Assembly (NCBI RefSeq): GCF_031127815.1
Contig: NZ_JARXHY010000018.1
Coordinates: 1 to 64,000, forward strand
Origin: Pelagicoccus sp. SDUM812003
Lineage (GTDB): Bacteria > Verrucomicrobiota > Verrucomicrobiia > Opitutales > Opitutaceae
DNA: 64,000 bases
Direction: 5' to 3'
Made by a program: the position numbers and the translations under genes
Part shown: positions 13,299 to 28,734 of the stretch, piece after piece
How the letters are laid out: each line of letters opens with the position of its first letter
Numbering within the stretch: the stretch's first letter is position 1
Notes under the pieces: generated by a model
What the model was told of the DNA's origin: nothing
Databases searched by the model: none
The model's input: the letters and a program-made list of their open reading frames with translations, nothing else

Positions 13299-14495
13299 CT
13301 ACAGCTTAATCAAAATCCCCCGACCCCAGAGGTAGCGCACCGGGAGATAAATGATGCCAACGTAGAAAAGGGCATAAAAAAGCGAGGCCAGCTTTCCGGC
13401 TAGGCCAAGCTCTAGGGCGGCGTCCATAAACCACGCGTTCAATCCCGCGAACTCTCCGTACCCTGTGTAGAAAACGGAAAGCAGCATTCCCGAAAGGGCA
13501 TAGGCGACGATCGGATTGGCCCCAAACACCAGCCCCATTTTCGCCCATCGCTTGTATCCGCAGATATCGATCAGCAAAACGCAGCTCGCGAAGCAAACCG
13601 CTGACCAGCCGCCCGAAACGAGCACGAAAGAGCTGCTCCAAAGGTTCTTGTTGAGCGGAAAGCTCCAACTCCAGATCGTGCCGAGCCCCACCGCAGCAAA
13701 TCCCACGAGATACAGCCAGCTCACCCGTCGATAGGCATCGCCAATCCTCAAGACGAGAGCGCCCACCAACAGGCCGAATATCCCCGTTCCTATCGCTGGC
13801 AAGGTCGTGAACAAACCTTCCGGATCCCAGGTTCGTTCCCAGAACCGACCGGGCAGCAAGCGACGATCCACCCAAGCCGCGACGTTCGCACCTGGCTCGT
13901 AGTTGGGCCTTAGATACGCTTCACCCCTGGCGGATACCGACACCTCCACTTGCTGTCCATAGCTTCTTTCGATGTATCCACTTTCCAACGCTAGCTCATT
14001 GACCGCGTCCAATGGTACCGGTACCCAGGCCATCACGCCCCAATAGGCCAGCAAAATGCCGACTCCTATCGAAAGTTGAGCTTTCCAGCTCACCAGCAGG
14101 AAAAGGATCGCGCATACCGCAAACACGATCGCGATGCGCTGCAGCACTCCCGCGACGCGAATCTCCGACAGATCGAAGCTCGGCCAAAGATTGAGGAACA
14201 AACCAACGGCGAAGATCTTAACGCCGCGAATGACGATCTTCCGATAGGCCGCCGCCTTCTGGCGTTCGCTCAGATCCAAGCGCCCGTACGCAAGCGCTAT
14301 CGAAATGCCCATGATGAAGAGAAAGAAAGGGAACACCAGATCGGTCAGCGTCATCCCGTGCCAAGGCGCGTGAAGCAGCGGAGGATAAACGTGGCTCCAG
14401 GAACCTGGGCTGTTCACGATGATCATGCCAATGATGGTGAAGCCTCGCAAGGCATCGAGCGACAGGAGACGCTCCTTTTTCCCTGAACGTCTCAT
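13299..14495 (-). CDS. HGSNAT-like transmembrane acetyltransferase (heparan-alpha-glucosaminide N-acetyltransferase family)
   Basis: A 398-residue polytopic membrane protein (about 10-11 helices). It opens with RLLSLDALRGFTIIGMIIVN and has the family core LHAPWHGMTLTDLVFPFFL. That core aligns with the human lysosomal enzyme HGSNAT, whose active-site His lies in the equivalent HAxWxG motif (His42 here). HGSNAT moves an acetyl group from cytosolic acetyl-CoA across the membrane to terminal glucosamine. The gene abuts the symporter gene with no spacer and is last in an operon with GH20, PIG-L and NagB. This supports a role in acetylating amino sugars outside the cytoplasm, but acceptor and direction are inferred. 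Confidence 0.82.
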   Translation of the reverse strand: MRRSGKKERLLSLDALRGFTIIGMIIVNSPGSWSHVYPPLLHAPWHGMTLTDLVFPFFLFIMGISIALAYGRLDLSERQKAAAYRKIVIRGVKIFAVGLFLNLWPSFDLSEIRVAGVLQRIAIVFAVCAILFLLVSWKAQLSIGVGILLAYWGVMAWVPVPLDAVNELALESGYIERSYGQQVEVSVSARGEAYLRPNYEPGANVAAWVDRRLLPGRFWERTWDPEGLFTTLPAIGTGIFGLLVGALVLRIGDAYRRVSWLYLVGFAAVGLGTIWSWSFPLNKNLWSSSFVLVSGGWSAVCFASCVLLIDICGYKRWAKMGLVFGANPIVAYALSGMLLSVFYTGYGEFAGLNAWFMDAALELGLAGKLASLFYALFYVGIIYLPVRYLWGRGILIKL

Positions 14496-16292
14496 CTAGA
14501 CTCCTTCCGTGTCCTTGGTTTGGATACGTTTCAGCAGAAACAAGATCCCCAGCGCCCCGAGGACGAGCATCGACACACCGAGAGCTTCAGATCCGTAAAT
14601 GACATACCCCAGGCCGAACAGCGCCGCGTAAACCGAAACGCTGCCGACGAAAAAGTTGAGCAACCCATTGGGGATGCTTTCGCTAGCTGGCCCCACCCGC
14701 AGCTCAACGCCTTCACGAGCTAAAGCGGACTGTACCTTCGACCACCCCGGCCCCGACGGGCGAATCTCACGGTAGAAACGCCTCAGCGTTTCCTCGTCCG
14801 TGGGCGGCGTCAGCAGGGTGACCGTCAGCCAGAGGACCGTGGTCACCGCCACACTGGCGATCAGTTGCCAGTGTCCTTGCAGCGGCTCGAAACCGAGACG
14901 CTCATAGCCGAACTCGAAAAACACCGCCACGAGAAAGGAAACGATCATTCCAGCGATCTCCGTCATGGCGCTGATCCGCCACCAGAACCAACGAAGGATG
15001 AAGATGAGACCGGTGCCCGCTCCGATGGAGAGCAGAATGTTGAAGCTCTGCAGGGCGTTGTCCAACACCAGGGCCACTCCGCCCGCGCACACCATGAGCA
15101 ATGCGGTGGAGAGACGCCCAACCCGGACCTGCGCCTTTTCATCCGCGCTCGGATCGATAAAGCGCTTGTAGAAGTCGTTCACGATATAGGAGGATCCCCA
15201 ATTCAAGTGAGTCGAGATGGTGGACATGAAGGCGGCCACCAAGGACGCGATCACCAAGCCCAGGACGCCGGCTGGCAAGAAGGCTAGCATGGCTGGATAT
15301 GCCAAATCGTCGCCTAGGATCGATGGATCGACATCAGGGAACGCCGCTCCCAAGTCGCCAATGCTTGGATACACGACCAAAGAAGCGAGGGCGATGATGA
15401 TCCAAGGCCAAGGACGCAGCGCATAGTGAGCAATATTGAAGAAAAACGTAGCCCCGATCGCGTGGCGTTCGTTTTTTGCCGACAGCATCCGCTGGGCCAC
15501 ATAGCCTCCACCGCCTGGCTCGGCCCCGGGATACCAGACGCTCCACCACTGCACAGCCAGCGGAACCAAGAATACGGAAAGAGCCATGCTCGAATCGCTG
15601 AAATCCGGGAGCAGTCGCAGTTTTTCGGATACATTAGGATGCGCGAGCAGCTCGCCAAGCCCGCCGATCTCCGGCTTGGATACAATCAAATAGGCCGCCC
15701 AGACCGAACCCGCCATGGCTAAGCCAAACTGAACGAAATCCGTTATCAACACGCCCCTCAGTCCCCCTAGCGAGCTGTAGACCACCGTCACCAGAGAGGC
15801 GATCAATAGCGTCTCCAGCGGCGACAGACCAAGAGCGATTCCACCTAGCTTGACTGCGGCCAAGCAAACGTTGGCCATGATCATGACGTTGAAAAAGAAT
15901 CCGAGATAAAGGGCTCGAAAGCCCCTTAGGAAGGCGGCTGGCCTGCCGCTGTAGCGCAGTTCGTAAAACTCCAGATCCGTACTTACCTTGGAACGCCTCC
16001 ACAGACGGGCGTAGACGAAAACGGTGAGCATGCCGGTCAGCAGAAACGCCCACCACACCCAATTGCCAGACACTCCATTCTTGCGAACGATATCGGTCAC
16101 CAGATTCGGTGTATCGATGGCGAAGGTGGTAGCCACCATGGATACGCCCAACAACCACCACGGCATGTTTCTGCCTGAGAGGAAAAACTCTTGGGCAGAC
16201 TTGCCCGCCCGTCTGGAAACCGCGAGGCCGATCGCCAGCGATACGATGAAGAAGGCAGCGATGATGACCCAGTCGAGATTAGAAATTGTCAT
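14496..16292 (-). CDS. Sodium:solute symporter (SSS family)
   Basis: A 598-residue SSS-family transporter with about 13-14 membrane helices. It starts directly with a first transmembrane segment (NLDWVIIAAFFIVSLAIGLAVS). Recognisable features are the GRNMPWWLLGVSMVATTFA segment, TLLIASLVTVVYSSLGGLRGV and FMSTISTHLNWGSSYIVNDFYKRF, the sodium-symporter signature region. It lies 40 bases after the GH20 gene and directly before the acetyltransferase, so the likely cargo is GlcNAc, glucosamine or a chito-oligosaccharide. Cargo is inferred from context only. Confidence 0.9.
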   Translation of the reverse strand: MTISNLDWVIIAAFFIVSLAIGLAVSRRAGKSAQEFFLSGRNMPWWLLGVSMVATTFAIDTPNLVTDIVRKNGVSGNWVWWAFLLTGMLTVFVYARLWRRSKVSTDLEFYELRYSGRPAAFLRGFRALYLGFFFNVMIMANVCLAAVKLGGIALGLSPLETLLIASLVTVVYSSLGGLRGVLITDFVQFGLAMAGSVWAAYLIVSKPEIGGLGELLAHPNVSEKLRLLPDFSDSSMALSVFLVPLAVQWWSVWYPGAEPGGGGYVAQRMLSAKNERHAIGATFFFNIAHYALRPWPWIIIALASLVVYPSIGDLGAAFPDVDPSILGDDLAYPAMLAFLPAGVLGLVIASLVAAFMSTISTHLNWGSSYIVNDFYKRFIDPSADEKAQVRVGRLSTALLMVCAGGVALVLDNALQSFNILLSIGAGTGLIFILRWFWWRISAMTEIAGMIVSFLVAVFFEFGYERLGFEPLQGHWQLIASVAVTTVLWLTVTLLTPPTDEETLRRFYREIRPSGPGWSKVQSALAREGVELRVGPASESIPNGLLNFFVGSVSVYAALFGLGYVIYGSEALGVSMLVLGALGILFLLKRIQTKDTEGV

Positions 16293-16332
16293 TTTCTTGA
16301 GGATACATGTTTGAGATGGAAGATGCTAGGCG

Positions 16333-18351
16333 CTACTGTTCCAGCGATCGAAGCAGGGCCTCGATCGGCTGGACGACCTGCAGCTCGACTTTCGCCACTG
16401 GCTGACGCGCCGCTTCGAAAAGGGCTTCGGTCGTTTCATCCCAGACAAAGGGATCTTCCCGCTCCATCGCCGCCAACGCCAACCCTGCCAGGTCGCTCAA
16501 GGCTTGGGAGATCGGCAAGGCCTCGCGAATCGCCGGGGCTTTGCGAGCGAGCGCCTCAAAGGCGTCATGGTTCTTCGCCCATCTACGCAGCTGCTTCGAG
16601 ATGGCTTGCTGGCGCCTTTCGCTCGGATTCGCCAAGTAGTCCTCCACGAGAAAGCGGAATCTCAATGCATCTCGGGCGTCCGCGGTGGCCACGTCGGGAA
16701 GCAGGGTGTAGGGCGAGAAGGAACGATAGGAGAGATCTGCGTTTCGTCGGTAGATCTTGAGCGGTTCCACGACATCGGCCAAAGCCTCCAGCGCAGAGTA
16801 GTCGTATCCCCGAGCCAAGCGCCGCATCATCATGTCCCTGTTTTTCAGATGGGCTAGACCGAGTTCCTCGAGCTGCAGGGCAATCGTATCCAATCTTCGA
16901 TACATATCCCTCACGTCGTCGACTTCCGCGGAGGACCAAAGCCGTTCCGCGATGGCCGCGGTTCGCGGCCAGATGCGGGAGTCCACCGTCTCCGGCGTCA
17001 CATGCTCGCTCCACATGGTCGCCTCTCCTCCGAGAACGCGCTCTCGCTCCGCCTCGCTCAAGTCCACGTCTTTGGGAAGCGGATCGTTTAGGTAATGCTC
17101 GCTCGCTGGCTGCATCAGGTCGATGTAGTAGCCGTTGGACAGTATGCTTTGATATCCGTCCTTCGCGGCGGCCACCATGGACTCTCGTCCTCTCCAGGAG
17201 TGGATGACGATATTCGTCGGCATCTCGGGATGCAGGATCTCGTCCCAACCGATCATCCGCTTCTCTAGTTTCGTCAGTATTTTCAGGATACGCTGATTGA
17301 AATGGGCTTGCAGGGCATGCTTGTCCGCGAGTCCGTTCTCCTCCATGAACCGTTGCACGGTCTCGCTCTGCTCCCAGTGGTGCCCTTCCACCTCGTCCCC
17401 TCCGATATGAAAGTAGGGATCGGGAAAAAGAGCTGCCATTTCGGTGAACACCGCTTCCAAGATCTCGTAGACTACCTCCTTGCTTGGATCGAGCGTTGGC
17501 TCGAAGATCCCCCAGCCACGCTCGATTTCGTAGGGCCCGGGCAGCGAAGCCATCTCCGGATGCCCCACCAGCCAAGCGGTGGCGTGACCTGGCACATCGA
17601 ATTCCGGATACACGCGAATGCCGCGATCGGCCGCGTACGCAACGATCTCGCGTATCTGCTCCTGGGTGTAGTACATGCCATCGGAACCCAATTCGTGCAG
17701 GCGCGGATAGCTCTTGGTTTCCACACGAAAGCCTTGGTCTTCCGTCAAATGCCAGTGCATGACGTTGAGCTTCACCGCCGCCATGCCGTCGAGGTTTCGC
17801 TTCAGCGCATCCATCGGCATGAAATGCCGTGCCGAATCGATCATCAAACCTCGCCAAGCGAATCGTGGAGCATCCTCGATTTCAACGGCTGGAAAATAGA
17901 AGCCGTCCTCATCCACCGAGAGCAGCTGCAGAAGCGTCTCCAGCCCATGCATCGCTCCAAGATCGGTCTCCGCAAGAATCCGTATCCGCTTTTTCTCTAC
18001 GACGAGACGATACGATTCATCCTCGCCCAGAGCGACGCTTCCCGGACGCGAAACCGTGATCAGCAGATCCGAGGCATCCGCAAGGTCGGTCGGCTTCACG
18101 TAGTCCTGAGGGAAAAAAAGCCCGGAGCGACCGTCCAGACGACGCAGGAAGCGCGACGCTGCCGAGTAGATGCGCGGGTCGGGATTTCCCTCGACCGCTA
18201 CCTGAAACGTCGCTTCCAGGCGAAAACGCCCTTGGCCTTTTTCGATGGACTGGGGAACAGGCAGCAATTGATCGGTCATCGGCTTGGCGACAGTTGAGAT
18301 GAGGGCGAAGAGTGCGAACAGGGCTGCAAGGCAGTGCTTGAGGTGGGGCAT
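16333..18351 (-). CDS. Beta-N-acetylhexosaminidase, GH20
   Basis: The 672-residue secreted enzyme has a signal peptide (residues 1-22), an N-terminal GH20b-type domain (about 30-150), the TIM-barrel catalytic domain (about 155-490) and a C-terminal helical extension. Catalytic Asp319-Glu320 lie in HIGGDEVEGHHW. Other family motifs are WRGLMIDSARHFMP and LNVMHWHLTEDQGFR. It removes terminal beta-linked GlcNAc or GalNAc from chito-oligosaccharides or glycans. It is third in the nagB operon, which suggests GlcNAc-containing substrates. The C-terminal 150 residues are longer than the minimal family and of unknown function. Confidence 0.94.
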   Translation of the reverse strand: MPHLKHCLAALFALFALISTVAKPMTDQLLPVPQSIEKGQGRFRLEATFQVAVEGNPDPRIYSAASRFLRRLDGRSGLFFPQDYVKPTDLADASDLLITVSRPGSVALGEDESYRLVVEKKRIRILAETDLGAMHGLETLLQLLSVDEDGFYFPAVEIEDAPRFAWRGLMIDSARHFMPMDALKRNLDGMAAVKLNVMHWHLTEDQGFRVETKSYPRLHELGSDGMYYTQEQIREIVAYAADRGIRVYPEFDVPGHATAWLVGHPEMASLPGPYEIERGWGIFEPTLDPSKEVVYEILEAVFTEMAALFPDPYFHIGGDEVEGHHWEQSETVQRFMEENGLADKHALQAHFNQRILKILTKLEKRMIGWDEILHPEMPTNIVIHSWRGRESMVAAAKDGYQSILSNGYYIDLMQPASEHYLNDPLPKDVDLSEAERERVLGGEATMWSEHVTPETVDSRIWPRTAAIAERLWSSAEVDDVRDMYRRLDTIALQLEELGLAHLKNRDMMMRRLARGYDYSALEALADVVEPLKIYRRNADLSYRSFSPYTLLPDVATADARDALRFRFLVEDYLANPSERRQQAISKQLRRWAKNHDAFEALARKAPAIREALPISQALSDLAGLALAAMEREDPFVWDETTEALFEAARQPVAKVELQVVQPIEALLRSLEQ

Positions 18352-18370
18352 CGTCGAGTGGGTTGTATGT

Positions 18371-19210
18371 TCATTTCGCCGCGAAGCGCTCGATGCGCTG
18401 CAGCGTATCCATTTTAAAATGATCTATGAATCCCTTCACGTAATCAGCAGGGCTGGGAGCGTGCTCCGCGAGCAACGGTTTCAGGTCCATGGCAAAGGTA
18501 AGGGCCTTGGCCGTATCCACGCTATGAGATTGGAAAAAGGTGGCGTTAGCGAAGCGCCGTCCCAATGCGGCAGCGACATAGTCCTTGCCGCCGGCCACCT
18601 GCGAATCGAAGACCTCGATCAGCTGGCGAGCCAGGTCCGGATACGCGTCTACCGGCAGAGCTATTTTCCTGCCGTCATCCAGCCAATCGAGATCGCGCCA
18701 CACTTCGCAGCCATAGACCGCCTCCGGATGGAGCGCTGGCGGCAGGCGTCTCAGAGCTTCGAGACAACGGCTCAGAACCGCGATGTGGGTATCGTGCTTG
18801 TCGGCGGGATTGTGCAGGTAGAGCACCCGGGGAGAGCAGCTTCGCAGCAAGGCCTCCAGATCATCCACCAACGCTCGCGAACTCTCGTGATCCTTGACCT
18901 GCGAGCTGGGCACGCCGAGCTGGACCTGAAGCGCGTAGCGCCCTAGTCGAGCGGCTTCGTTCTGCTCCGCCACCCGCTTGGCCTTCATTTCTTCGTCGGT
19001 AAAATCCTGATACGGTCCGACGCGGGCGCTGCCGCCGCCATCCGTCACCGTGACTCCAGCAAACCACTCGTCCTCCGATTCGTAGCAAGCGGCGATGCCG
19101 TGGTAGGCGAAAATTTCCAGATCGTCCTGATGGGCTCCGATACCCATGCGCGTCACTCGGGACATGGCTTGCGCCTCCGCGATTCCATCCGGTACATACA
19201 TTCGACTCAT
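18371..19210 (-). CDS. PIG-L/LmbE-family N-deacetylase
   Basis: The 279-residue protein is a stand-alone PIG-L family enzyme. The zinc/catalytic motif is AHQDDLE with His27, Asp29 and Asp30 intact, and the second metal motif is NPADKHDTH near residue 138. The family removes acetyl from GlcNAc-containing substrates (MshB, BshB, PIG-L). It sits between nagB and the hexosaminidase, 47 bases after nagB, with no nagA in the window. It may therefore supply the deacetylation step that NagA usually performs, but on unphosphorylated GlcNAc or its derivative. That role is inference. There is no signal peptide, so it is cytoplasmic. Confidence 0.85.
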   Translation of the reverse strand: MSRMYVPDGIAEAQAMSRVTRMGIGAHQDDLEIFAYHGIAACYESEDEWFAGVTVTDGGGSARVGPYQDFTDEEMKAKRVAEQNEAARLGRYALQVQLGVPSSQVKDHESSRALVDDLEALLRSCSPRVLYLHNPADKHDTHIAVLSRCLEALRRLPPALHPEAVYGCEVWRDLDWLDDGRKIALPVDAYPDLARQLIEVFDSQVAGGKDYVAAALGRRFANATFFQSHSVDTAKALTFAMDLKPLLAEHAPSPADYVKGFIDHFKMDTLQRIERFAAK

Positions 19211-19257
19211 TGGCTTGGTTGCGATTTGGGGTTTTCTCGTCGGTCCAAAGGATTACG

Positions 19258-21147
19258 CTAGGGACGCCACCGCACAAAACACTCGATCGCTTCGTATTCC
19301 GCCAGTCCGAAACGGTCGTAGGTCGTAGCGGTCTGCCGGTTTCGAGCGATGGCCTGTTCCCACGCTTCCGTCTGCTCCTCGTCCAGCACCGGCACCTGAC
19401 TGCGCTGCGAGCGGTGCTGATAGATGGCCTGGGCCTTGATCTTGAGCTCGTCTGGACTGCACGGCACCGACATCTCCGTCTGGTGAGCGGCCCATTCACG
19501 CCCGTCGCTGCGATAGAGCCAGACGTAGCAGTCCTCCACCCACGCCTCGCCTCGCAATCTCTCCAAAGCGCAGCGAAACACCTCAAATCCCTTGGCGGAA
19601 ACGGAGCTCGGGTCGGCGTCGGATCCGGTGGCGTAGACTTGATGGGGCATGGAGCGACGCAGCAGTTTTTCCAGTTCGCTCACGTCCGCCTCACCGACCT
19701 GAAACTGGCGGTAGCGGCCGTTTTCATAAAACGGAAGATCCAGAAAGCGGATACAGCTGAGATCGACTCCGCAGCGCTGCAGAGCGGCTCGGGCCTCGTT
19801 ACGGCGAATGTAGGCCTTGAACTCCCTGAGCTGCTTGGTGTCCTGATCGAACGCCCCCTTTTCGTCGAGCTCCAAGAGTACCCGTTTCGCCAATACAGCC
19901 TCCTCCCCGCGACTCGCTTCCACGATCAGCTCCGCCGCCCAGCGCGCTTCTTCGTCCGGGACGCCCAAGCTGCCAGATGTCTGGTAGGCCACCGTGATAT
20001 CGTGCCCGTGAGCGGCGAGACGGCTCAAGGTGCCCGCCATGGCCAGCACGTCATCCTGCGGCTCCGGACTCAGCACCAGCACTCGCTTGCGAGCGGGCTG
20101 AGCCCGTTCCGGTCGATAGGTGTCGTCGGCGTCGGGCTTGCCGCCAGGCCAGCCGGTGATGGTGTGCTGCAGCTCGTTGAAGATGCGAATGTTCAGACCG
20201 TAGGCCGGGCCTTGCTCGGTCACCAGCTCCGACAAGCCGTTTTCCTGATAGTCCTTGTCCACCAGCTTGAGCAGCGGCTTGTCCAGGCTCAGCGATAGCT
20301 CGGCGATGGCCTTGCGGCTCAGCTCAGGCGTCCAGTCGGGGAAACCGACGCGCCAGGGCTGGCGGTTTCGCGTCAGCTCGGAAGCGGACGCCTCATCCAA
20401 CACGAACCGAGCCGACGGATGGGCCTGCAGGAAACTGGCGGGCAGACTGTCGCGCGGCTCGCCTTCCACCGCCTGCTTGATCACCTCCGCCTTGGATCGT
20501 CCCCACGCAAGCAATACAAGCGAACGCGCGTCCATGATGGTGCCCACGCCCATGGTCACCGCGTAGCGCGGCACGTTGTGCTCGCCCAAAAAATCCCGCG
20601 CCGCGTCGAGCTTGGTGAGACGGTCCAGCGTCACCAGACGGGTGCGCGAACGCATGCCGGATCCCGGCTCGTTGAATCCGATGTGACCGGTGCGTCCGAT
20701 GCCGAGGATCTGCATATCGATCCCTCCCGCGGCCGCGATGGCCTCCTCGTAAGCCTGACAGGCCGCGAAAACGTCGTCGCGACCGACCTCGCCGCTAGGC
20801 ACGTGGATACGTTCCTCCGGGATGTCGATGTAGTCGAAGAGCTGCTCCTTCATGAACCGGTGATAGCTCTCGGGATGCTCGTGGCCGATGGGGAAGTATT
20901 CGTCCAGGTTGAAGGTGATCACATTGGAAAAGCTCAGCCCATCCTCCCGATGCAAGCGGATCAGCTCCTTGTAGAGCGGTACCGGCGTGGAGCCCGTAGC
21001 CAGCCCGAGCACGAAATCGCGCCCCGCCGCCTGACGCTCCCGAATGGCTGTCGCGATCTCCGCGGCCACCGTGGCCACCGCCTTGGTAGCGTCCGGATAG
21101 ATTTCGACTGGTATGCGTTCAAACGCCTGTAGTTCGCCGTTCTGCAT
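19258..21147 (-). CDS. nagB: Glucosamine-6-phosphate deaminase fused to a degenerate PIG-L-like domain
   Basis: The 629-residue protein is first in the operon, with GGGAGGG as ribosome-binding site. Residues about 10-255 are NagB: ATGSTPVPLYKELI, FNLDEYFPI, LGIGRTGHIGFNEPGS and the lid region are all present. Residues about 350-620 have the PIG-L/LmbE fold known at the C-terminus of Bacteroidota-type NagB. Here, however, the catalytic signature is SPEPQDD, with Glu362 and Gln364 in place of the usual His and Asp. The second metal site, normally ADPHGTH-like, reads DADPSSVSA (about residue 510). The domain therefore looks unable to bind zinc normally. NagB converts GlcN-6-P to fructose-6-P and ammonia. 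Confidence 0.92.
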   Translation of the reverse strand: MQNGELQAFERIPVEIYPDATKAVATVAAEIATAIRERQAAGRDFVLGLATGSTPVPLYKELIRLHREDGLSFSNVITFNLDEYFPIGHEHPESYHRFMKEQLFDYIDIPEERIHVPSGEVGRDDVFAACQAYEEAIAAAGGIDMQILGIGRTGHIGFNEPGSGMRSRTRLVTLDRLTKLDAARDFLGEHNVPRYAVTMGVGTIMDARSLVLLAWGRSKAEVIKQAVEGEPRDSLPASFLQAHPSARFVLDEASASELTRNRQPWRVGFPDWTPELSRKAIAELSLSLDKPLLKLVDKDYQENGLSELVTEQGPAYGLNIRIFNELQHTITGWPGGKPDADDTYRPERAQPARKRVLVLSPEPQDDVLAMAGTLSRLAAHGHDITVAYQTSGSLGVPDEEARWAAELIVEASRGEEAVLAKRVLLELDEKGAFDQDTKQLREFKAYIRRNEARAALQRCGVDLSCIRFLDLPFYENGRYRQFQVGEADVSELEKLLRRSMPHQVYATGSDADPSSVSAKGFEVFRCALERLRGEAWVEDCYVWLYRSDGREWAAHQTEMSVPCSPDELKIKAQAIYQHRSQRSQVPVLDEEQTEAWEQAIARNRQTATTYDRFGLAEYEAIECFVRWRP

Positions 21148-21263: not shown

Positions 21264-22166
21264 ATGATTGACCCGGCCTCGTTTGCGAAGGATCTGAGCG
21301 CCCTGCCGCACCTGGTTCCCCGCGACTACTTCCACGGCATCCGTCCGCGCTCCCTCTGCCTGGCCGACAACATCGTGGTCTTTCTGCGTCGAAACAAGCA
21401 GGCCTTGCAGCAGCGCACCTTCGAAAGCCGTCCGCATCACCGGCATGTGCTGCTGGTCACCTTTCAGACCGCAGGCTCCATCAACGTGGACGGGGCCGCC
21501 TACCCCCTGCAGCCAGGCACCGCCTTTCTCATCCGCCCCTACCAGTTCCATTTCTACATCGACCTTCAAGGGGACGAGCTTTGCTGGCTGTTCATCACCT
21601 TCGAAACGGAAAACGACCAGCCCTTCGACTCCTTCGCCAATCTGCCGCTGCAGCTGGGGCCGGAGCACCTGCGGCGCTGCCTGGAGATCGCCCAAGCCTA
21701 CAGTCGGCGGGACAGCGCCGACGCCGCCCTCGATCTGCTCACCTTATCCGCTTCGACGCTGCTCACTCAGCTGCGCCACCTCGCCCTCGAGCGCAGCGCC
21801 CCGCTGGTCAAGCAGCCGCCGCGCAGCTCCAGCGGCTACGCCCTGGTGGAGCGCGTCAACCACCTGCTGGAGTCCCACAGCGAAGCGCGAGCGGACATAC
21901 AGCGTCTCTCGCAGGGCCTCGCCATCTCGGAGAGCCACCTGCGCAAGCGCTTCAAGGCTCTCACCGGCATCAGCCTCGGTAGCTACCTGGTGCACTACAA
22001 GCTCAACCGGGCGGTGAAATTGCTGGCCCACTCCAACGCTTCGCTGACGCAGATCTCCCTGGACTGCGGCTACGAGTCCCTGCCGGCGTTTTCCCGCAGC
22101 TTCAAGGCGAAGCTCGGGGTGACGCCCTCCCAGTATCGCAAGAACGCCACCTTCGCCGGGCGCTAG
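21264..22166 (+). CDS. AraC-family transcriptional regulator (amino-sugar operon)
   Basis: The 300-residue protein has an N-terminal cupin-like sensor domain (about residues 50-130, with FLIRPYQFHFYIDL) and a C-terminal pair of helix-turn-helix motifs (about 200-295): IQRLSQGLAISESHLRKRFK and LTQISLDCGYESLPAFSRSF, ending in GVTPSQYRK. It is divergent from nagB, so it most likely activates the amino-sugar operon in response to a sugar. The ligand is not predictable. It converges on the GH10 gene 25 bases downstream. Confidence 0.9.
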   Translation: MIDPASFAKDLSALPHLVPRDYFHGIRPRSLCLADNIVVFLRRNKQALQQRTFESRPHHRHVLLVTFQTAGSINVDGAAYPLQPGTAFLIRPYQFHFYIDLQGDELCWLFITFETENDQPFDSFANLPLQLGPEHLRRCLEIAQAYSRRDSADAALDLLTLSASTLLTQLRHLALERSAPLVKQPPRSSSGYALVERVNHLLESHSEARADIQRLSQGLAISESHLRKRFKALTGISLGSYLVHYKLNRAVKLLAHSNASLTQISLDCGYESLPAFSRSFKAKLGVTPSQYRKNATFAGR

Positions 22167-22191: not shown

Positions 22192-23292
22192 CTAGTCTTC
22201 CAACTGCGAACCGAGCCCCTCTCGGAAACCGAAAAACGCCGGCTTCGGCTGCAATTCGTCGTCGAAGAGACAGGGCCAATCCTGCAAATCGAAAAAGCCG
22301 CGAATCCAGGAGTCGCCATCGTTGAAGCCCCAGAAGGTAATTCCGTACTGCTGCTCCTCCGGCACCACGCGGCGATAGATTTCCACCAGCTGGCGATACT
22401 TGTCGCCCTGCTGGGCCAACATCTCGTCGGTGACTTCGTCGTAAATCTGCTCGCCTCCCCCAAAGCTGTCATCGTGCCGGTTGAAGATGATGTCCACTTC
22501 CGAGAGATGGATCTGCAAGCCGGTGGCAGCCCCTTTGCGCAAGGCCTCCTCGATGACATCGTTGGAGATGTCCATGCGGATGTGCATCTGAAATCCGAGC
22601 CCGGAGATCGGCACCCCATCGGCTTGCAGCTCGGCGATCATCTCCAAGGCAGTGTCCAGCTTCTCCCCATCCCGTTCGATGTTAAAATCGTTGTAGAACA
22701 AGGTCGCGTCAGGATCGGCCTCATGGGCGTAGCGAAAGGCCTTGGCAATGTATTCCTTTCCTAGGGCCTGGTACCAAATGGACTCCCGATACCCCGGTCC
22801 AGAGGTGTTCATGGCTTCGTTGACCACGTCCCAGCCGTCGATCTCGCCACGGTAGCGGCCGACGTAGGTTTGAATGTAGCGCTTCATGAAGGCGTCCAGA
22901 GCCTGCGGGTCTTTCGCTCCCAGTTCCTTAACCCAGTCCGGCGTGGCGCTGTGCCAGATGAGGGCGTGGCCGAAAACGCGAAGATCATGCCTCCGGGCGA
23001 AGGACATCACCCGATCCGCCGACCTGAAGGAGAGCTTGCCCGGCCTGCGGGCGATGAAGTGCATCTTCATCTCGTTATTGGCCGTCACTCTATCGAAGTG
23101 CGTCAGCAGCAGGTCCCGCATCGCGCCGTCCTTCTGGTAGCGCTTCACCCAAATCGCGTTTCCCACGGGGAAAGGGGCCACCTCCTTGAGAGCGGCTCCA
23201 GCAGTAGCGTCTGCTTGAGCGCTGGAATCGGAAGGGGGAGTAAAAAGCGCGGTCATGGCGAGGGCGAGTAGGGCGGTCGAAGGGCGTACCAT
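22192..23292 (-). CDS. Endo-1,4-beta-xylanase, GH10
   Basis: Starting at the ATG at 23292 (or 23295; the frame opens further upstream without signal character), the product is 366 residues with a signal peptide (VRPSTALLALAMTALF, cleavage near residue 24). It is a single GH10 catalytic domain with acid/base Glu159 in DVVNEAM and nucleophile Glu265 in IHLSEVDI. HALIWHSATPDWV and ITFWGFNDGDSWI are further family motifs. It hydrolyses internal beta-1,4 bonds of xylan in the periplasm or outside the cell. There is no carbohydrate-binding module. It follows the TPR gene of the TonB operon by about 170 bases, probably under its own promoter. Confidence 0.94.
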   Translation of the reverse strand: MVRPSTALLALAMTALFTPPSDSSAQADATAGAALKEVAPFPVGNAIWVKRYQKDGAMRDLLLTHFDRVTANNEMKMHFIARRPGKLSFRSADRVMSFARRHDLRVFGHALIWHSATPDWVKELGAKDPQALDAFMKRYIQTYVGRYRGEIDGWDVVNEAMNTSGPGYRESIWYQALGKEYIAKAFRYAHEADPDATLFYNDFNIERDGEKLDTALEMIAELQADGVPISGLGFQMHIRMDISNDVIEEALRKGAATGLQIHLSEVDIIFNRHDDSFGGGEQIYDEVTDEMLAQQGDKYRQLVEIYRRVVPEEQQYGITFWGFNDGDSWIRGFFDLQDWPCLFDDELQPKPAFFGFREGLGSQLED

Positions 23293-23459
23293 CATGAGCG
23301 AAATTGGGTTGGAGAGCGTGACAGGTCTGGCCGCGAGCGGCCACCTAGGCGTACCAAACGGAAAACGGCAGGACGCACAACCCACCGTCTCAAATTTCCC
23401 GTTCTTTCTATGGACCGCCCGATGCGCGGCCCGTTTCACCAGCCCTGCTAAGAAGCCCC

Positions 23460-24824
23460 CTAGCTACGGCTCGCCGCTTCTTCCACCGCGCGCAGGTAGT
23501 CCGCCACGTTGGATCGGTACTCCAGATCGAGCGACTTGCGGATCAGCTTGGCCGCTTCGGAATAGGACTGCTGCTCGACGAGAAGCTGTCCGTGCTGCAG
23601 GTACGCCTGACTGGCCACCGTTTCGATATTTTCAGCGCGGCTGAACAAGAACTCGGCTTCTTCGATATCGCCTTGCTTCCATGAGAATCGAGCGAGCAGG
23701 AGCAAGGCGCGTCCATTCATCGGATCCTCCTCGATGATCTTCTCAAGGGTTTCCGCGGCAGCGGCGTCGTTGTTGGCTCCGAGCTGGGCCTCCGCTCGGC
23801 GGTTGAGCAGCTCGAGGTTTGCGCTCTTGTCGAGCTCGTCAGCCATCTGGGCTTCCGCGATATCCGCCAGCTCCAGGGCGTGGCGCCATTCCCCGTTCTC
23901 GATGAAGGAGCCGATGGCCCGCGAAACGCTGGCGAAACGGCGCTGCTTTTCCGGCGTTTGCTTCAAGGCGTCTCGATAGGTGCCGATCGCCAGATCGTAC
24001 ATGCCCCGATTCGCATAGATGTCCGCAAGGAGAAACAAGCTGTTCTCATCGCCCTCGCCCATGCGGCGAGCGATTTCCAGATTGGCCATGGCCCCGTTCA
24101 CGTCCTCGCGGGCCAGGCTCACGTTGGCCTGGTGCAGGTAGAGCTCGTGATTGGCCGGATCGAGCGCGATCAGTTCGGAAACCAGCCCGGCTGCGTCTTC
24201 GAAGTTCTCCAGCTCGATGAGCGCTCGCGTCTTGCCCAGCTTCCAATCCTTGGACTTCGGGTCGAAAGCGATGGCAAGGCTGTAGGCGTTGACCGCGGAG
24301 GAGTAGAGACCCAGGTTCAAATAGCTGTACCCAAGAAGCCCATACGACAGGCCATCCGCTCCACCCAGCTCCATGCCCTTGACGATGACGTCGATGCCCT
24401 CTTCCAACTGCTGGTTCTGAATGTAGGCGATGCCTAGATTCTTGTAGGCGCGCATGAAATTGGGAAACTTCTTGATGGCTCGCTCGTAGGCCGCGATCGA
24501 CTGATCGACTTGCCCCAACTGCATGCGAATGGTGCCCAGCATGAAGTCGAGCGCGGCGCTGGAATCCGCAGTGATTCGGTCCTCCAGCAGAGTCGCCCCC
24601 TGAGCGAGATCCGCCTCCAAAACCGCGATCAAGGTCTTGAAGAATTCCCCTTCCGTGTCGCTGAGCTTCGGCTCGAGTTCGCTATGGACGCCGTAGCTGC
24701 CCAAGACCCGGTTTTTGAACTCCGGATTCTTCCAGAAGTTTTCGCTGAGCGGATAGGTCTGAGCGCCTAGGCCCGAACCGATAAAAACGCACGCTAGCGC
24801 TACAATTCGTTTTGCTGCTTTCAT
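23460..24824 (-). CDS. TPR protein of the TtpC-type TonB cluster
   Basis: The 454-residue protein has a signal peptide (MKAAKRIVALACVFIGSGLG; start chosen at 24824, with an in-frame ATG at 24839 also possible). At least ten tetratricopeptide-like helical repeats follow (about residues 45-445), for example AIAAYERAIKKFPNFMRAYK and DLAIGTYRDALKQTPEKQ. It begins 30 bases after tonB and is the last gene of the operon. Periplasmic TPR proteins accompany TtpC-type TonB systems in marine gammaproteobacteria and are thought to help transduce energy to receptors. Its direct partner is unknown. Confidence 0.85.
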   Translation of the reverse strand: MKAAKRIVALACVFIGSGLGAQTYPLSENFWKNPEFKNRVLGSYGVHSELEPKLSDTEGEFFKTLIAVLEADLAQGATLLEDRITADSSAALDFMLGTIRMQLGQVDQSIAAYERAIKKFPNFMRAYKNLGIAYIQNQQLEEGIDVIVKGMELGGADGLSYGLLGYSYLNLGLYSSAVNAYSLAIAFDPKSKDWKLGKTRALIELENFEDAAGLVSELIALDPANHELYLHQANVSLAREDVNGAMANLEIARRMGEGDENSLFLLADIYANRGMYDLAIGTYRDALKQTPEKQRRFASVSRAIGSFIENGEWRHALELADIAEAQMADELDKSANLELLNRRAEAQLGANNDAAAAETLEKIIEEDPMNGRALLLLARFSWKQGDIEEAEFLFSRAENIETVASQAYLQHGQLLVEQQSYSEAAKLIRKSLDLEYRSNVADYLRAVEEAASRS

Positions 24825-24854
24825 CACAATTGTATCCAAATTCTAACTAAATGA

Positions 24855-25523
24855 TTAAGGGCGCTCCAGGGTCATCGGGAAAAGGAAGCGCGCCCGCGCT
24901 GGCTTTCCGTCCTTGGTCGGACTGGTGAAACGGAACGACTCCAGATAGTCGATCACCTCTTCGTCCACGATGTGCTCGCTGATGCTTTGGAAGCGCTGGA
25001 AATTCACATGGCCATTCTCGTCGATGATGATCAAGGCCCGCACCACCAGGTCGTCCCTCACCCTTCCGATGGCGTGACGCGGCCAAGTCCAACTAGGCTG
25101 GCGGATGGGGCTCGGACGCTCGTCGAGCTCGGCCACGCTAAAGGTCTGAATATCGTCCAATGCGTTGGTCTCGACTTCGAAGCCGCCCATTCCGAACGCG
25201 GCCCCCATGGCGTTCCCCGTGCCGGGGTTCATGGCGAGCTGCAGCTGGCTCAAGCTCATCGGCTTGGGCTGGCTCTGCAGCTCCGGCTTGGGCTGCTCCA
25301 CCTTCTCCTCTGGCGGAGGCGGAGGCTCGGGCGGCGGAGGCGGAGGCGGCGGCAGGGCCACGTCGATGCTGCGCACGGTGCGGGTTTCCTGGATCTTCAT
25401 CAGGTGCTGCGTAAACGGCAGGATGAAAACCAATACCGCCACCAAAAGCACCGAATAGACGAAGATCCGAGCGAAGCGAGCCGCTCCCTGATGCACGCCT
25501 TTGGATTGATAGTATTCGCTCAT
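24855..25523 (-). CDS. tonB: TonB energy transducer
   Basis: The 222-residue protein has one N-terminal membrane anchor (about residues 20-42), then a proline tract with PPPPPPPPEPPPPPEE and a Pro/Gln/Lys linker (about 55-90), and a C-terminal TonB domain (about 125-220) with RVRDDLVVRALIIIDENGHV and LESFRFTSPTKDGKPARARF. It is the fifth gene of the DUF3450-ttpC-exbB-exbD-tonB-TPR operon and matches TonB2-type proteins, which are shorter than E. coli TonB. It should drive TonB-dependent outer-membrane receptors; none is encoded in this window. Confidence 0.93.
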   Translation of the reverse strand: MSEYYQSKGVHQGAARFARIFVYSVLLVAVLVFILPFTQHLMKIQETRTVRSIDVALPPPPPPPPEPPPPPEEKVEQPKPELQSQPKPMSLSQLQLAMNPGTGNAMGAAFGMGGFEVETNALDDIQTFSVAELDERPSPIRQPSWTWPRHAIGRVRDDLVVRALIIIDENGHVNFQRFQSISEHIVDEEVIDYLESFRFTSPTKDGKPARARFLFPMTLERP

Positions 25524-25534
25524 CGGTTCTCTAC

Positions 25535-25936
25535 CTAGTCCTCAGTCGCCAGACTGACGGAAATCGCCCCAGCGAGCTTCGCCTCGTCGATCACACGCAC
25601 TACCGTATCCGTGATAGACTTACGATCCGCTTGTATGATCACCGGCATCTTCTCCTTTTGATACAGACGGCGGATCACCGGCCGCACCCCGCTCACGCCG
25701 ACTTCCTTGCCGCCGTAGACCACATTCCCGTTTTCGGTGATGGCGATCAAGATGCTGTTCTTCTCCAAATCCGATGCGGACGCCGCTTGCGGCTTGTTCA
25801 CCTCCACACCAGTTTCCTCCACGAAAACCGTGGTGACGATGAAGAAGATCAAGAGGATAAAGACCATGTCGATCAGCGGAGAAATATTGATTTCCTCCGT
25901 CCCCTTCTTCTCCGCGAACAATCTTCTGTTCTTCAT
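25535..25936 (-). CDS. exbD: ExbD biopolymer transport protein
   Basis: The 133-residue protein has the ExbD/TolR layout: a short cytoplasmic N-terminus, one membrane helix (about residues 20-42) with [20 protein letters not shown] carrying the essential Asp, and a periplasmic domain (about 60-130). It lies 14 bases after exbB and 11 bases before tonB in a tight operon. Together with ExbB it uses the proton motive force to energise TonB. Confidence 0.95.
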
Positions 25937-25950
25937 TTGAAATCGTTCTC

Positions 25951-26550
25951 CTAACTGATTTGTCGCGCCTTTCTGGCGACACAGGCTTCGAGACGTGTGA
26001 TTAGCGTATCCAAAGCGTTTTGACGTTTCTCGATAATCATCAGCATGACGTATCCCGGGATAGCGATGACGAGGCCGAACTGCGTCGTGATCAACGCCTC
26101 CGAAATGCCATCCGCCACCATATTCACGGTCTGTCCGCCAGTGCTGATGGCGAGCCCCTTGAAGGTGCTGAGCATGCCGATCACAGTGCCGAGCAGTCCG
26201 GTAAGCGGCGCCGCTCCCACGAAGACCGCCAGCATGATGCGGCGTCGATCGACGCGGCTCAGGTGCTCGTTGCGCACTTCGCTGAAGCGGTTGATGACGT
26301 CACGCTGGTGCGGCAGGGCATCCCTCCCGTACTCGATCATGCTGCGAATCTCCCCGTTGGCGTGACTCGGGTCGTTCACCCAATCCTCGATCGTCTTGTC
26401 GGAGGCCTGCTTGCCTTTGAGGTTATTAAGATAGACGATCATCTCCACCCCGGTGAAGAAGATCAGCATCGCCAACGCTACGAGGGGATACATGAGAGCG
26501 CCACCTGCATTCCAGATGGGCATGAAGCTCTCCTGAAAGAACCCGTTCAT
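25951..26550 (-). CDS. exbB: ExbB/TolQ/MotA-family proton channel protein
   Basis: The 199-residue protein has three membrane helices (about residues 17-38, 108-130 and 150-172) and the MotA/TolQ/ExbB signature [19 protein letters not shown], followed by [20 protein letters not shown]. Its ATG overlaps the stop of the upstream ttpC-like gene (ATGA, 26547-26550), showing translational coupling. It is the shorter of the two ExbB-like proteins of the operon, the ExbB2 equivalent. Confidence 0.94.
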
Positions 26551-27953
26551 TGGGCGTAAGCCTCTTCCTTGCGGCCCGGTAGTCCGTTCACGAATACGAC
26601 GGACAGCTTTTCCATGTTGGCCATGATGGACTGGGCCTTGCGATTGAGCATGGCATGGGCCACCAACGATGGGATCGCCACCACGAGACCAAGCTCGGTA
26701 GTGATGAGCGCTTCGGAAATACCGCCGGAAAGCGAGCTCGCGTCCCCTGTGCCAAATAGCGTGATCATCTTGAAGGTGTTGATCATACCTGTCACCGTGC
26801 CGAGCAGCCCCAGCAAGGGCGCCACCGCCGCAGTCACCGCGATGACCGAAAGGAAGCGCTCCACCTTCGGCTGAGCTTCCAGCATGCGCTCATACATGAC
26901 TTCCTCCACCAGCTCCTTCTCCTGGTCGCTGTTCTTCACCGCTTCCTGAATCATAGGACCAAACTCCCACGGCAAGTTGCCGGCGTCGGCCAAAGCCTCA
27001 TCCTTTCGGCCGTCGCGAATCTTGCGCACGATGGCCCCGAGCTCCATGGCGCTCGGCTGCTTGATGGAGTAGATTTCAACCAGCTTGTAGACCGCGAGCA
27101 AGGCCGCCATGACCGCGAAGAAGATGATGGGCCAAACCCATATCCCGCCTTTCATCACGTGTTCGGAAACCGTTTCCTTCGAACCTTCGATGGCAAGGGC
27201 CGCTCCCAAGGTCACATCCAAGGGCAAGGCTCCCTCCTTCGATTGAGCGAGCGAGGCGACCTTCTTGCTGAACTCCGGATTGAGCGGGGTCGCATTTGGC
27301 ACCGCCACCTGGTGGGTCTCGATGATGCCGCCCTGCTCGCCGGTTTGGCTGGCGAACACGCTGACCGGTCCGAGCTCGACGAAGCTGCCCGTCTGCACGT
27401 TGCCTTTCTCGTCGACCGCCTGCCCGGCGTAAACCGCTCCGCCAAACCGATCGTGAAGGCGCTGGATGCCAAGCTTGACCAAATCGATTTGGGCCGCGTA
27501 TTGATCTTTCTTGGACACGTCCGCCGACTCCAATGACTCGCGTACCGCATCGATGCGCTCGTCAAACTGCTGCTGCTCGGCGGCGGTCATCTGGGTCTGC
27601 AGCTCCTGCATGAACTGGCTCATCATGCCGCTCACATAATCGTTTTCATCTTGGATAGCCGCCACGCGCCCTTCCAAGGCTTCCAGACCGATGGTGCGCG
27701 TATCCTGAGCGCGCTGCTCGCGCTCAAGAGTGGAGCCCAGACCGCGCACTTCCGACTTGAGGGCGTTGATGCGACGCGATAGCGGTACGCTTTCCTCCCG
27801 GATCGCTTGCCTGGCATCGCTCAAACGCTGCAGGGCCGCATCGAGATCTTCTCTCGCCTGGTCGTTCACCGACTGCAAATCCGCCGCCGCGGAGAGGACC
27901 GAGGCGCATGCGAACATCGCGGCGCCAAAAATAAGTTTCTTGGATGCTTTCAT
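26547..27953 (-). CDS. TtpC-like protein: coiled coil plus ExbB/TolQ domain
   Basis: The 468-residue protein joins a signal peptide (residues 1-22), a long periplasmic coiled coil (about 25-160), a globular linker (about 165-265) and a C-terminal MotA/TolQ/ExbB domain (about 280-460) with LLGLLGTVTGMINTFKMI and [19 protein letters not shown]. This is the architecture of TtpC, which is needed for TonB2-dependent iron transport in Vibrio. The operon order DUF3450, TtpC, ExbB, ExbD, TonB, TPR also matches. No TonB-dependent receptor is adjacent, so the cargo is unknown. Confidence 0.88.
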   Translation of the reverse strand: MKASKKLIFGAAMFACASVLSAAADLQSVNDQAREDLDAALQRLSDARQAIREESVPLSRRINALKSEVRGLGSTLEREQRAQDTRTIGLEALEGRVAAIQDENDYVSGMMSQFMQELQTQMTAAEQQQFDERIDAVRESLESADVSKKDQYAAQIDLVKLGIQRLHDRFGGAVYAGQAVDEKGNVQTGSFVELGPVSVFASQTGEQGGIIETHQVAVPNATPLNPEFSKKVASLAQSKEGALPLDVTLGAALAIEGSKETVSEHVMKGGIWVWPIIFFAVMAALLAVYKLVEIYSIKQPSAMELGAIVRKIRDGRKDEALADAGNLPWEFGPMIQEAVKNSDQEKELVEEVMYERMLEAQPKVERFLSVIAVTAAVAPLLGLLGTVTGMINTFKMITLFGTGDASSLSGGISEALITTELGLVVAIPSLVAHAMLNRKAQSIMANMEKLSVVFVNGLPGRKEEAYAQ

Positions 27954-27966
27954 CTTAACCCTGTAG

Positions 27967-28734
27967 TTAGTTGATCACGACAGGCAGTTCGACGAACTCC
28001 GCCTGCTTGCCTTTCTCATACATGGAAAGCGCGTCGAGAATCGCTGCCCCGTATTCCGGAGCGCTCTTCCATTTCCAGCCTTCGGCTGTCGGATAGCCGT
28101 ACCCCGCATGCTCGCCTGTAGCGTCAGCGTAGTAGGCGATGGCGAAGCCGAAGTAGAGCGTCTTCACTTGCTTGCTGACGCCATCCCCGACTTCGCGGGT
28201 TTCCGTCTCCAGACTGATGACGTTGTCGAACTTATTGGCCTGGCTGAGGATGCCTACCACGTTTCGCATGCGCACCGACAGCGACAGCTGAGTGTCCTTG
28301 CCTTCCTTCGGCAGCTGCCGGATCAGCGGCGCGATGCTCTCGGCGTATTTGGACGGGAAATACGGCACCAAGGATCGAACGCCCGCTTCCAAAGCTTCCA
28401 GTTCGGAGCGAACCACGTCGCTGGCTTCCTCAAGAGCCTCTTTTCGGTCAACGACTTCCGAGCGACGCTTATCCGCCTCCGTGGCCGAGTCGCGAGTCTC
28501 TTCGATCTTGGCCGCTAGCGTCTCGCGCTCGCTCTCCAGCATGCGGGCCATGTCCTCTAGAATCGCCTTCTCCTTCTTCCAGTCGTTCAGCTCTTTCGAG
28601 ATCAGACTCTCCGTTTCAGCCCATTGAGTGACTGTCGACTTCGTCTCCTCGTAGAGAGCGTTCGTCGGCGCCGCCGACGCGAAACCCACACAGGTCAAAA
28701 ACCCGAGAAATGCAGCTTTTTTGAAATGTTCCAT
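27967..28734 (-). CDS. DUF3450 periplasmic coiled-coil protein
   Basis: The 255-residue protein has a signal peptide (residues 1-22), a coiled coil (about 35-120) with many Glu/Lys/Arg heptads, and a C-terminal domain (about 125-255) containing RMRNVVGILSQANKFDNVI and LYFGFAIAYYADATGEHAGYG, features of the DUF3450 family. It is first in the TonB operon, just before ttpC. DUF3450 proteins are almost always encoded beside TtpC-type systems; they are presumed periplasmic partners, with no biochemical function known. Confidence 0.88.
   Translation of the reverse strand: MEHFKKAAFLGFLTCVGFASAAPTNALYEETKSTVTQWAETESLISKELNDWKKEKAILEDMARMLESERETLAAKIEETRDSATEADKRRSEVVDRKEALEEASDVVRSELEALEAGVRSLVPYFPSKYAESIAPLIRQLPKEGKDTQLSLSVRMRNVVGILSQANKFDNVISLETETREVGDGVSKQVKTLYFGFAIAYYADATGEHAGYGYPTAEGWKWKSAPEYGAAILDALSMYEKGKQAEFVELPVVIN

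Follow-up and report, generated by a model that had tools for sequence, protein, structure and literature searches.

A putative NagX-type amino-sugar operon of Pelagicoccus with two PIG-L domains, one of which has lost its metal ligands

Gene content of the operon

We analyzed a stretch of 64,000 nucleotides from Pelagicoccus sp. SDUM812003 (assembly GCF_031127815.1, contig NZ_JARXHY010000018.1, positions 1 to 64,000), referred to here as the window, and focused on an operon that combines an HGSNAT/NagX-like membrane acetyltransferase with two PIG-L domains, only one of which retains its metal motif. Five open reading frames (ORFs), all on the minus strand, run from position 21147 down to 13299 with intergenic gaps of 47, 19, 40, and 0 bases, and the domains that they encode (NagB, PIG-L, GH20, sodium:solute symporter [SSF], and HGSNAT_cat) each score above the cut-off of the respective Pfam family. 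A sequence-only reading that preceded this analysis had recognized a tight five-gene unit, which these coordinates, gaps, and families bear out. It had also named the first gene nagB; a NagB domain is indeed present, but the gene is not a plain nagB, because its product is a NagB-PIG-L fusion (PRK02122/NF002557) and the NF002557 match spans both halves (profile positions 22–651 of 653). The operon thus has two PIG-L domains. Its features are as follows:

19258–21147, minus strand: NagB-PIG-L fusion, 629 amino acids (aa) (NF002557, 809 bits, cut-off 384; TIGR00502, 270 bits, cut-off 236.9)
19258–20127, minus strand: C-terminal PIG-L domain of the fusion (PF02585, 45.5 bits, residues 357–510)
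20062–20064, minus strand: codon of E362 of the fusion (PIG-L ligand position 1)
18371–19210, minus strand: stand-alone predicted PIG-L deacetylase, 279 aa (PF02585, 46.6 bits; metal motif intact)
16333–18351, minus strand: GH20 beta-N-acetylhexosaminidase, 672 aa (PF00728, 332 bits; HIGGDE motif at residue 315), with an N-terminus that looks, by eye, like a signal peptide
14496–16292, minus strand: SSF, 598 aa, a probable amino-sugar importer (PF00474, 90.3 bits)
13299–14495, minus strand: HGSNAT/NagX-like membrane acetyltransferase, 398 aa (PF07786, 38.6 bits, cut-off 22; PF16401, 28.2 bits, cut-off 25)
14370–14372, minus strand: codon of the catalytic His42 of the HGSNAT-like gene

A fused PIG-L domain without metal ligands

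According to passages of PMC4101496, LmbE-like enzymes bind their metal through an HXDD motif and a distant histidine. The fused domain of the window has E362-P-Q364-D365 at the first of these sites and serines (S515 and S518) at the positions of the later histidines, and it does not have the motif of an active deacetylase. Among solved structures, profiles of the fused domain score best with the archaeal diacetylchitobiose deacetylase (TkDAC, PH0499), presented in parts of the same paper as a PIG-L enzyme of chitin catabolism (PMC4101496); glutamate replaces the histidine of that enzyme, whose histidine ligands the window domain lacks.

To place this domain among its relatives, we compiled a motif table of 68 fused rows: 62 genomic loci; five Bacteroidota plasmid records, fetched from ten whose coverage of the fused query is 80% or more; and the window. 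The genome searches sampled 130 genomes of the host order (Opitutales) and 387 of the phylum, in both cases part of a larger group. Three fragments at contig ends (L045–L047) were left out of the tree and of the conservation counts, and L009 was also left out of the latter; all four stand in the table, the second motif being absent from L046. Of the 68 rows, 17 are canonical at the five checked positions, including all five from Bacteroidota (HPDD ... HGTH), which share the fused architecture with the window but have kept the motif that it lost, and the remaining 51 are degenerate. In these degenerate rows the first histidine is replaced by glutamate (49 rows), leucine (1), or aspartate (1), both histidine ligands are absent from 48 of the 50 that reach the second motif, and another residue takes the place of the general-base aspartate in 43 of 51; 36 of 51 retain the aspartate ligand. 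In a midpoint-rooted tree of 65 rows, all but one of the 48 full-length degenerate rows (47) fall on the same side of a single branch (support 100/99), and L009 represents a second, partial case of degeneration. Glutamate at ligand position 1 is fixed on the degenerate branch (47 of 47), as are further residues that are variable among the intact rows.

The fused PIG-L domain is less constrained than the NagB half (identity ratio of 0.77, vs 0.96 in intact proteins), and in the degenerate proteins it is still ~50% identical on average. Because the domain has been kept at this level of identity despite the loss of its metal ligands, its sequence suggests that it retains a non-catalytic role. It could instead still be an enzyme with an altered metal chemistry in which glutamate acts as a ligand, as the fixed glutamate and the frequent retention of the aspartate ligand might indicate, but the third histidine ligand is missing from nearly all degenerate rows that reach its position and the general base is mostly replaced, and we regard this explanation as very improbable.

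The stand-alone PIG-L protein and the missing NagA

The stand-alone protein, by contrast with the fused domain, has the HXDD motif and third histidine expected of an active LmbE-like/PIG-L enzyme (H27-Q-D29-D30 ... H139/H142), and H27, D29, D30, H139, and H142 are invariant in all 27 aligned stand-alone rows. Its profile scores best, although weakly (E = 0.0006), with BshB rather than with the archaeal diacetylchitobiose deacetylase. A structure predicted from the single sequence was too poor to use (mean predicted local distance difference test score of 41.5, predicted template modeling score of 0.40).

We found no match to the NagA model at E ≤ 0.001 in the host genome, which is 97.5% complete, and hence no sign of a classical nagA-nagB pathway; the same search gave matches in all 14 control genomes at this threshold, 7 of them above the model cut-off. 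With its metal motif intact and NagA unmatched genome-wide, the stand-alone PIG-L protein is a likely GlcNAc (N-acetylglucosamine) deacetylase, as the sequence-only reading had proposed. That reading had also reported neither nagA nor a sugar kinase in the window. None occurs among the ten window ORFs that were scanned with Pfam. It had further allowed for a normal nagA/nagK route elsewhere in the genome, for which the NagA half finds no match, whereas a BadF-family kinase is encoded outside the window and could, as a guess from its family, phosphorylate GlcNAc or glucosamine. The sole and weak match to a ROK kinase in the genome reads, by eye, as an acetate kinase and was rejected. Passages of PMC5583593 name known replacements for NagB and NagK, and none for NagA.

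Four PIG-L matches occur in the host genome: two in the operon, one in a bacillithiol-like cluster, and one in an 857-aa protein near that cluster. The cluster (L105:9502–16586) is a probable bacillithiol locus, with a weak, sub-cut-off BshC match and with PIG-L and glycosyltransferase genes named by eye.

In the 130 genomes of the order, 40 carry the fusion above its cut-off, 57 carry the stand-alone PIG-L gene (E ≤ 1e-20), and 34 carry both. Half of the stand-alone matches (31 of 61) lie on the same strand as, and no more than 3 kb from, a gene with a NagB domain. Of the 33 fused rows that have a stand-alone PIG-L gene nearby, 21 also contain a gene for a third protein, termed ROKx here (~460–490 aa, weakly related to ROK kinases). 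ROKx constitutes a divergent ROK-like kinase family (L073–L086) that is barely detected by Pfam, with two of eight scanned proteins reaching the ROK cut-off, and that is linked to NagB, PIG-L, or NagA. Within one family of genomes, a NagB-ROKx-PIG-L cassette is found in five loci (L073–L077) and NagB-ROKx without PIG-L in four (L078–L081); the four genomes of the latter carry an above-cut-off NagA elsewhere, and in another genome ROKx adjoins NagA (L084). Fused or stand-alone PIG-L is present in none of the six genomes with an above-cut-off NagA, compared with 63 of the 124 others, a contrast that was chosen after the data were seen and in which the six genomes represent two families.

The NagX-like membrane acetyltransferase

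The product of the last gene belongs to the HGSNAT_cat family by score and by its catalytic histidine, and it aligns with human HGSNAT (E = 3e-19). The earlier assignment of His42 in LHAPWHG to the active-site histidine of the human protein proved correct: it corresponds to His297 (His269 in the short isoform). Passages of a structure paper name the acetyl-CoA site residues of HGSNAT in short-isoform numbering (PMC11357348), and all six that can be aligned are conserved (N258 = N28, H269 = H42, D279 = D52, R344 = R113, D469 = D224, and E471 = E226); H586 and E587 fall outside the alignment. Membership in an HGSNAT-like family with a conserved site, within this gene order, is thus supported by Pfam and by the human alignment.

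The closest known counterpart in bacteria is NagX, which, in passages of PMC9007349, is proposed from mutant fitness in five bacteria to acetylate periplasmic glucosamine before its import as GlcNAc. The same passages report that growth on free glucosamine requires NagX and that growth on GlcNAc, one possible exception aside, does not. The acetylate-before-import idea of the sequence-only reading was therefore right in spirit, but it had been in print by 2022, with free glucosamine as the acceptor (parts of PMC9007349). Elsewhere, nagX is listed as a newly assigned auxiliary gene (passages of PMC2996990), NagX is called a transporter (a passage of PMC6252331), and passages of PMC12423673 group DUF5009 with HGSNAT and state that no DUF5009 protein has been tested. 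The operon resembles the NagX systems of Shewanella, Caulobacter, Echinicola, and others, as far as passages of PMC9007349 describe them, in having an HGSNAT-like membrane protein with a conserved histidine, amino-sugar linkage, and a transporter. It differs from them in that its genome has no NagA match, a stand-alone PIG-L gene lies beside a NagB-PIG-L fusion, and the NagX score is below cut-off; because of this score (under the NCBI NagX cut-off), we call the protein NagX-like rather than NagX.

In a tree of 22 homologues, the window protein clusters with those of L031 and L032 (support 96/98), loci from two families of the host order that likewise combine fusion, stand-alone PIG-L, GH20, and symporter genes, with a kinase-like gene in between in L032; a symporter homologue adjoins the HGSNAT-like gene in both. 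HGSNAT-like genes beside fusions do not form a single group, as the tree needs three changes, and a scan of a named genome collection with the window protein gave a single relative.

It is quite unlikely, in our view, that the HGSNAT-like protein merely shares the operon and acts on another acceptor, such as an envelope glycan or a muropeptide sugar, or is a transporter. Such a role would fit its low NagX score, the distant relationship of NagX to a putative N-acetylmuramate transporter (noted in passages of PMC9007349), and the position of a Sphingopyxis homologue beside an N-acetylmuramate-6-phosphate etherase gene. Against it stand the conserved catalytic residues and the linkage to NagB and GH20, which recurs in L031, L032, and Spirosoma.

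At L001:613–2898, the genome has a second HGSNAT-like gene, 15 bases past a GH20-like gene (45.4 bits) in the same orientation; the product of the former keeps the histidine but differs at the arginine, aspartate, and glutamate positions of the site.

GH20 and the fate of polymer ends

The sequence-only reading had likened the operon to the lysosomal step in which HGSNAT acetylates terminal glucosamine for hexosaminidases. In the lysosome, however, HGSNAT is followed in heparan sulfate breakdown by alpha-N-acetylglucosaminidase (NAGLU, GH89), an alpha-specific partner, whereas GH20 is a beta family. Against this background, the comparison had conflated beta-hexosaminidase with alpha-N-acetylglucosaminidase, and the heparan-like analogy fails: the window protein shares its family and six aligned site residues with HGSNAT, but its operon partner is GH20 and not GH89 (no search for GH89 or heparan enzymes was made beyond the operon). 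We therefore rejected a lysosome-like heparan step. A closer bacterial match to the HGSNAT-NAGLU step is found on a plasmid of Asticcacaulis excentricus (L098:5695–10064), where genes for an annotated alpha-N-acetylglucosaminidase, an HGSNAT-like protein, and a BadF kinase lie in a row.

A version of the idea without heparan is possible, although we do not favor it and consider it unlikely: the HGSNAT-like protein would re-acetylate the non-reducing-end glucosamine of chitosan-like oligosaccharides, which GH20, an enzyme that needs the 2-acetamido group, would then cut. Of the 14 fused-NagB loci that include an HGSNAT-like gene, 5 (the window, L008, L031, L032, and L052) have a GH20 similar to that of the window, the second HGSNAT-like gene of the genome also adjoins a GH20-like gene, and the Asticcacaulis gene is paired with an alpha-N-acetylglucosaminidase. 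Conversely, the other nine of these loci have no window-like GH20 (E < 1e-10) within the fetched stretch, the heparan form fails on the beta specificity of GH20, and the mutant defect described for NagX in passages of PMC9007349 is on the free sugar. With such a GH20 in 5 of the 14 loci and the published growth defect seen with free glucosamine, re-acetylation of polymer ends before GH20, as first proposed, did not find support.

Proposed pathway and its standing

We consider that, on balance, the locus is probably a NagX-type glucosamine/GlcNAc operon. The HGSNAT-like protein would transfer the acetyl group of cytoplasmic acetyl-CoA via His42 to periplasmic glucosamine, while the exported GH20 would release terminal beta-GlcNAc from oligosaccharides, and the symporter would import the GlcNAc. 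The stand-alone PIG-L protein would act in the cytoplasm and deacetylate GlcNAc, or GlcNAc-6-phosphate after the action of a kinase encoded elsewhere, a step that most bacteria carry out with NagA; glucosamine-6-phosphate would be converted to fructose-6-phosphate by the NagB half of the fusion; and the PIG-L half would be a pseudo-deacetylase, retained for its structural or regulatory function. More speculatively, and here we are doubtful, PIG-L may have displaced NagA as the GlcNAc(-6-phosphate) deacetylase of the order, with the fused PIG-L domain once being that enzyme and now a conserved pseudo-enzyme that controls NagB by sensing an amino-sugar ligand or by acting as a scaffold for the stand-alone enzyme.

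Several observations weigh against the NagX-type pathway as outlined. The HGSNAT-like protein scores 191.7 bits with the NagX equivalog model NF046061, far under its cut-off of 480. The operon has no kinase gene, and a search of the genome, made without a positive control, gave no match to the ROKx of its relatives. NagA-like genes below cut-off (E < 1e-20) are present in 24 of the 57 order genomes with stand-alone PIG-L, several of them beside a divergent NagB-like gene, and also in two of the five genomes with the NagB-ROKx-PIG-L cassette (G061, 206.6 bits, and G115, 195.8 bits; cut-off 225.65). The idea that NagA and PIG-L simply exclude each other was rejected: it holds for the six genomes with above-cut-off NagA and fails for the weaker NagA-like genes. 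Nor does a simple rule tie the loss of the fused motif to the stand-alone gene: it is present in 44 of the 50 genomes with a degenerate fusion, but also in 10 of the 11 with an intact one (G071 is counted in both, and G448 by a fragment of the stand-alone gene only).

Finally, 15 genomes have a stand-alone PIG-L gene but no NagB-domain gene above 230 bits, and for this reason the stand-alone protein may have another job. It would then serve another pathway, and an unrecognized enzyme would carry out the deacetylation. The fetched stretches L087–L090, which contain no NagB or ROKx relative, are in line with this explanation; however, about half of the occurrences in the order adjoin NagB, the host genome has no NagA match, and its BshB-like gene (named by eye) is a separate one, which together make this explanation rather unlikely.

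As a constituent of chitin and cell walls, GlcNAc is very common among natural sugars, and predictions of its catabolism rely on detecting nagA. If true, the use of PIG-L in the role of NagA would close a gap in pathway prediction for the host order. What looks new is the combination of no NagA match, a stand-alone PIG-L gene by NagB in many relatives, often with ROKx, and a fused PIG-L domain without metal ligands; the HGSNAT-like part agrees with the NagX model, here in a further lineage, and alone offers no new principle. In the literature searched, with subscription papers and preprints outside its scope, we found no paper with both "glucosamine-6-phosphate deaminase" and "PIG-L", and titles and abstract openings gave no account of PIG-L replacing NagA; we take this silence as weak evidence of novelty. 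The conserved fused domain without a metal site provides a clean test case of a lost catalytic domain turned structural or regulatory part, and the PIG-L pair is the part of the operon that merits a test at the bench.

Genomic surroundings

Scans with Rfam and for tRNA genes gave no matches, a promoter scan performed at chance level, and a terminator scan performed slightly above it. An AraC-type gene diverges from the operon and is its probable regulator:

21264–22166, plus strand: AraC-type gene (PF12833, PF02311), start 116 bases from the operon

An AraC gene beside the fusion recurs in many of the fetched relatives. The adjoining region (22192–28734, minus strand) encodes a GH10 xylanase and a TPR protein, both identified by Pfam, followed by a TonB/ExbB-like set recognized by eye.

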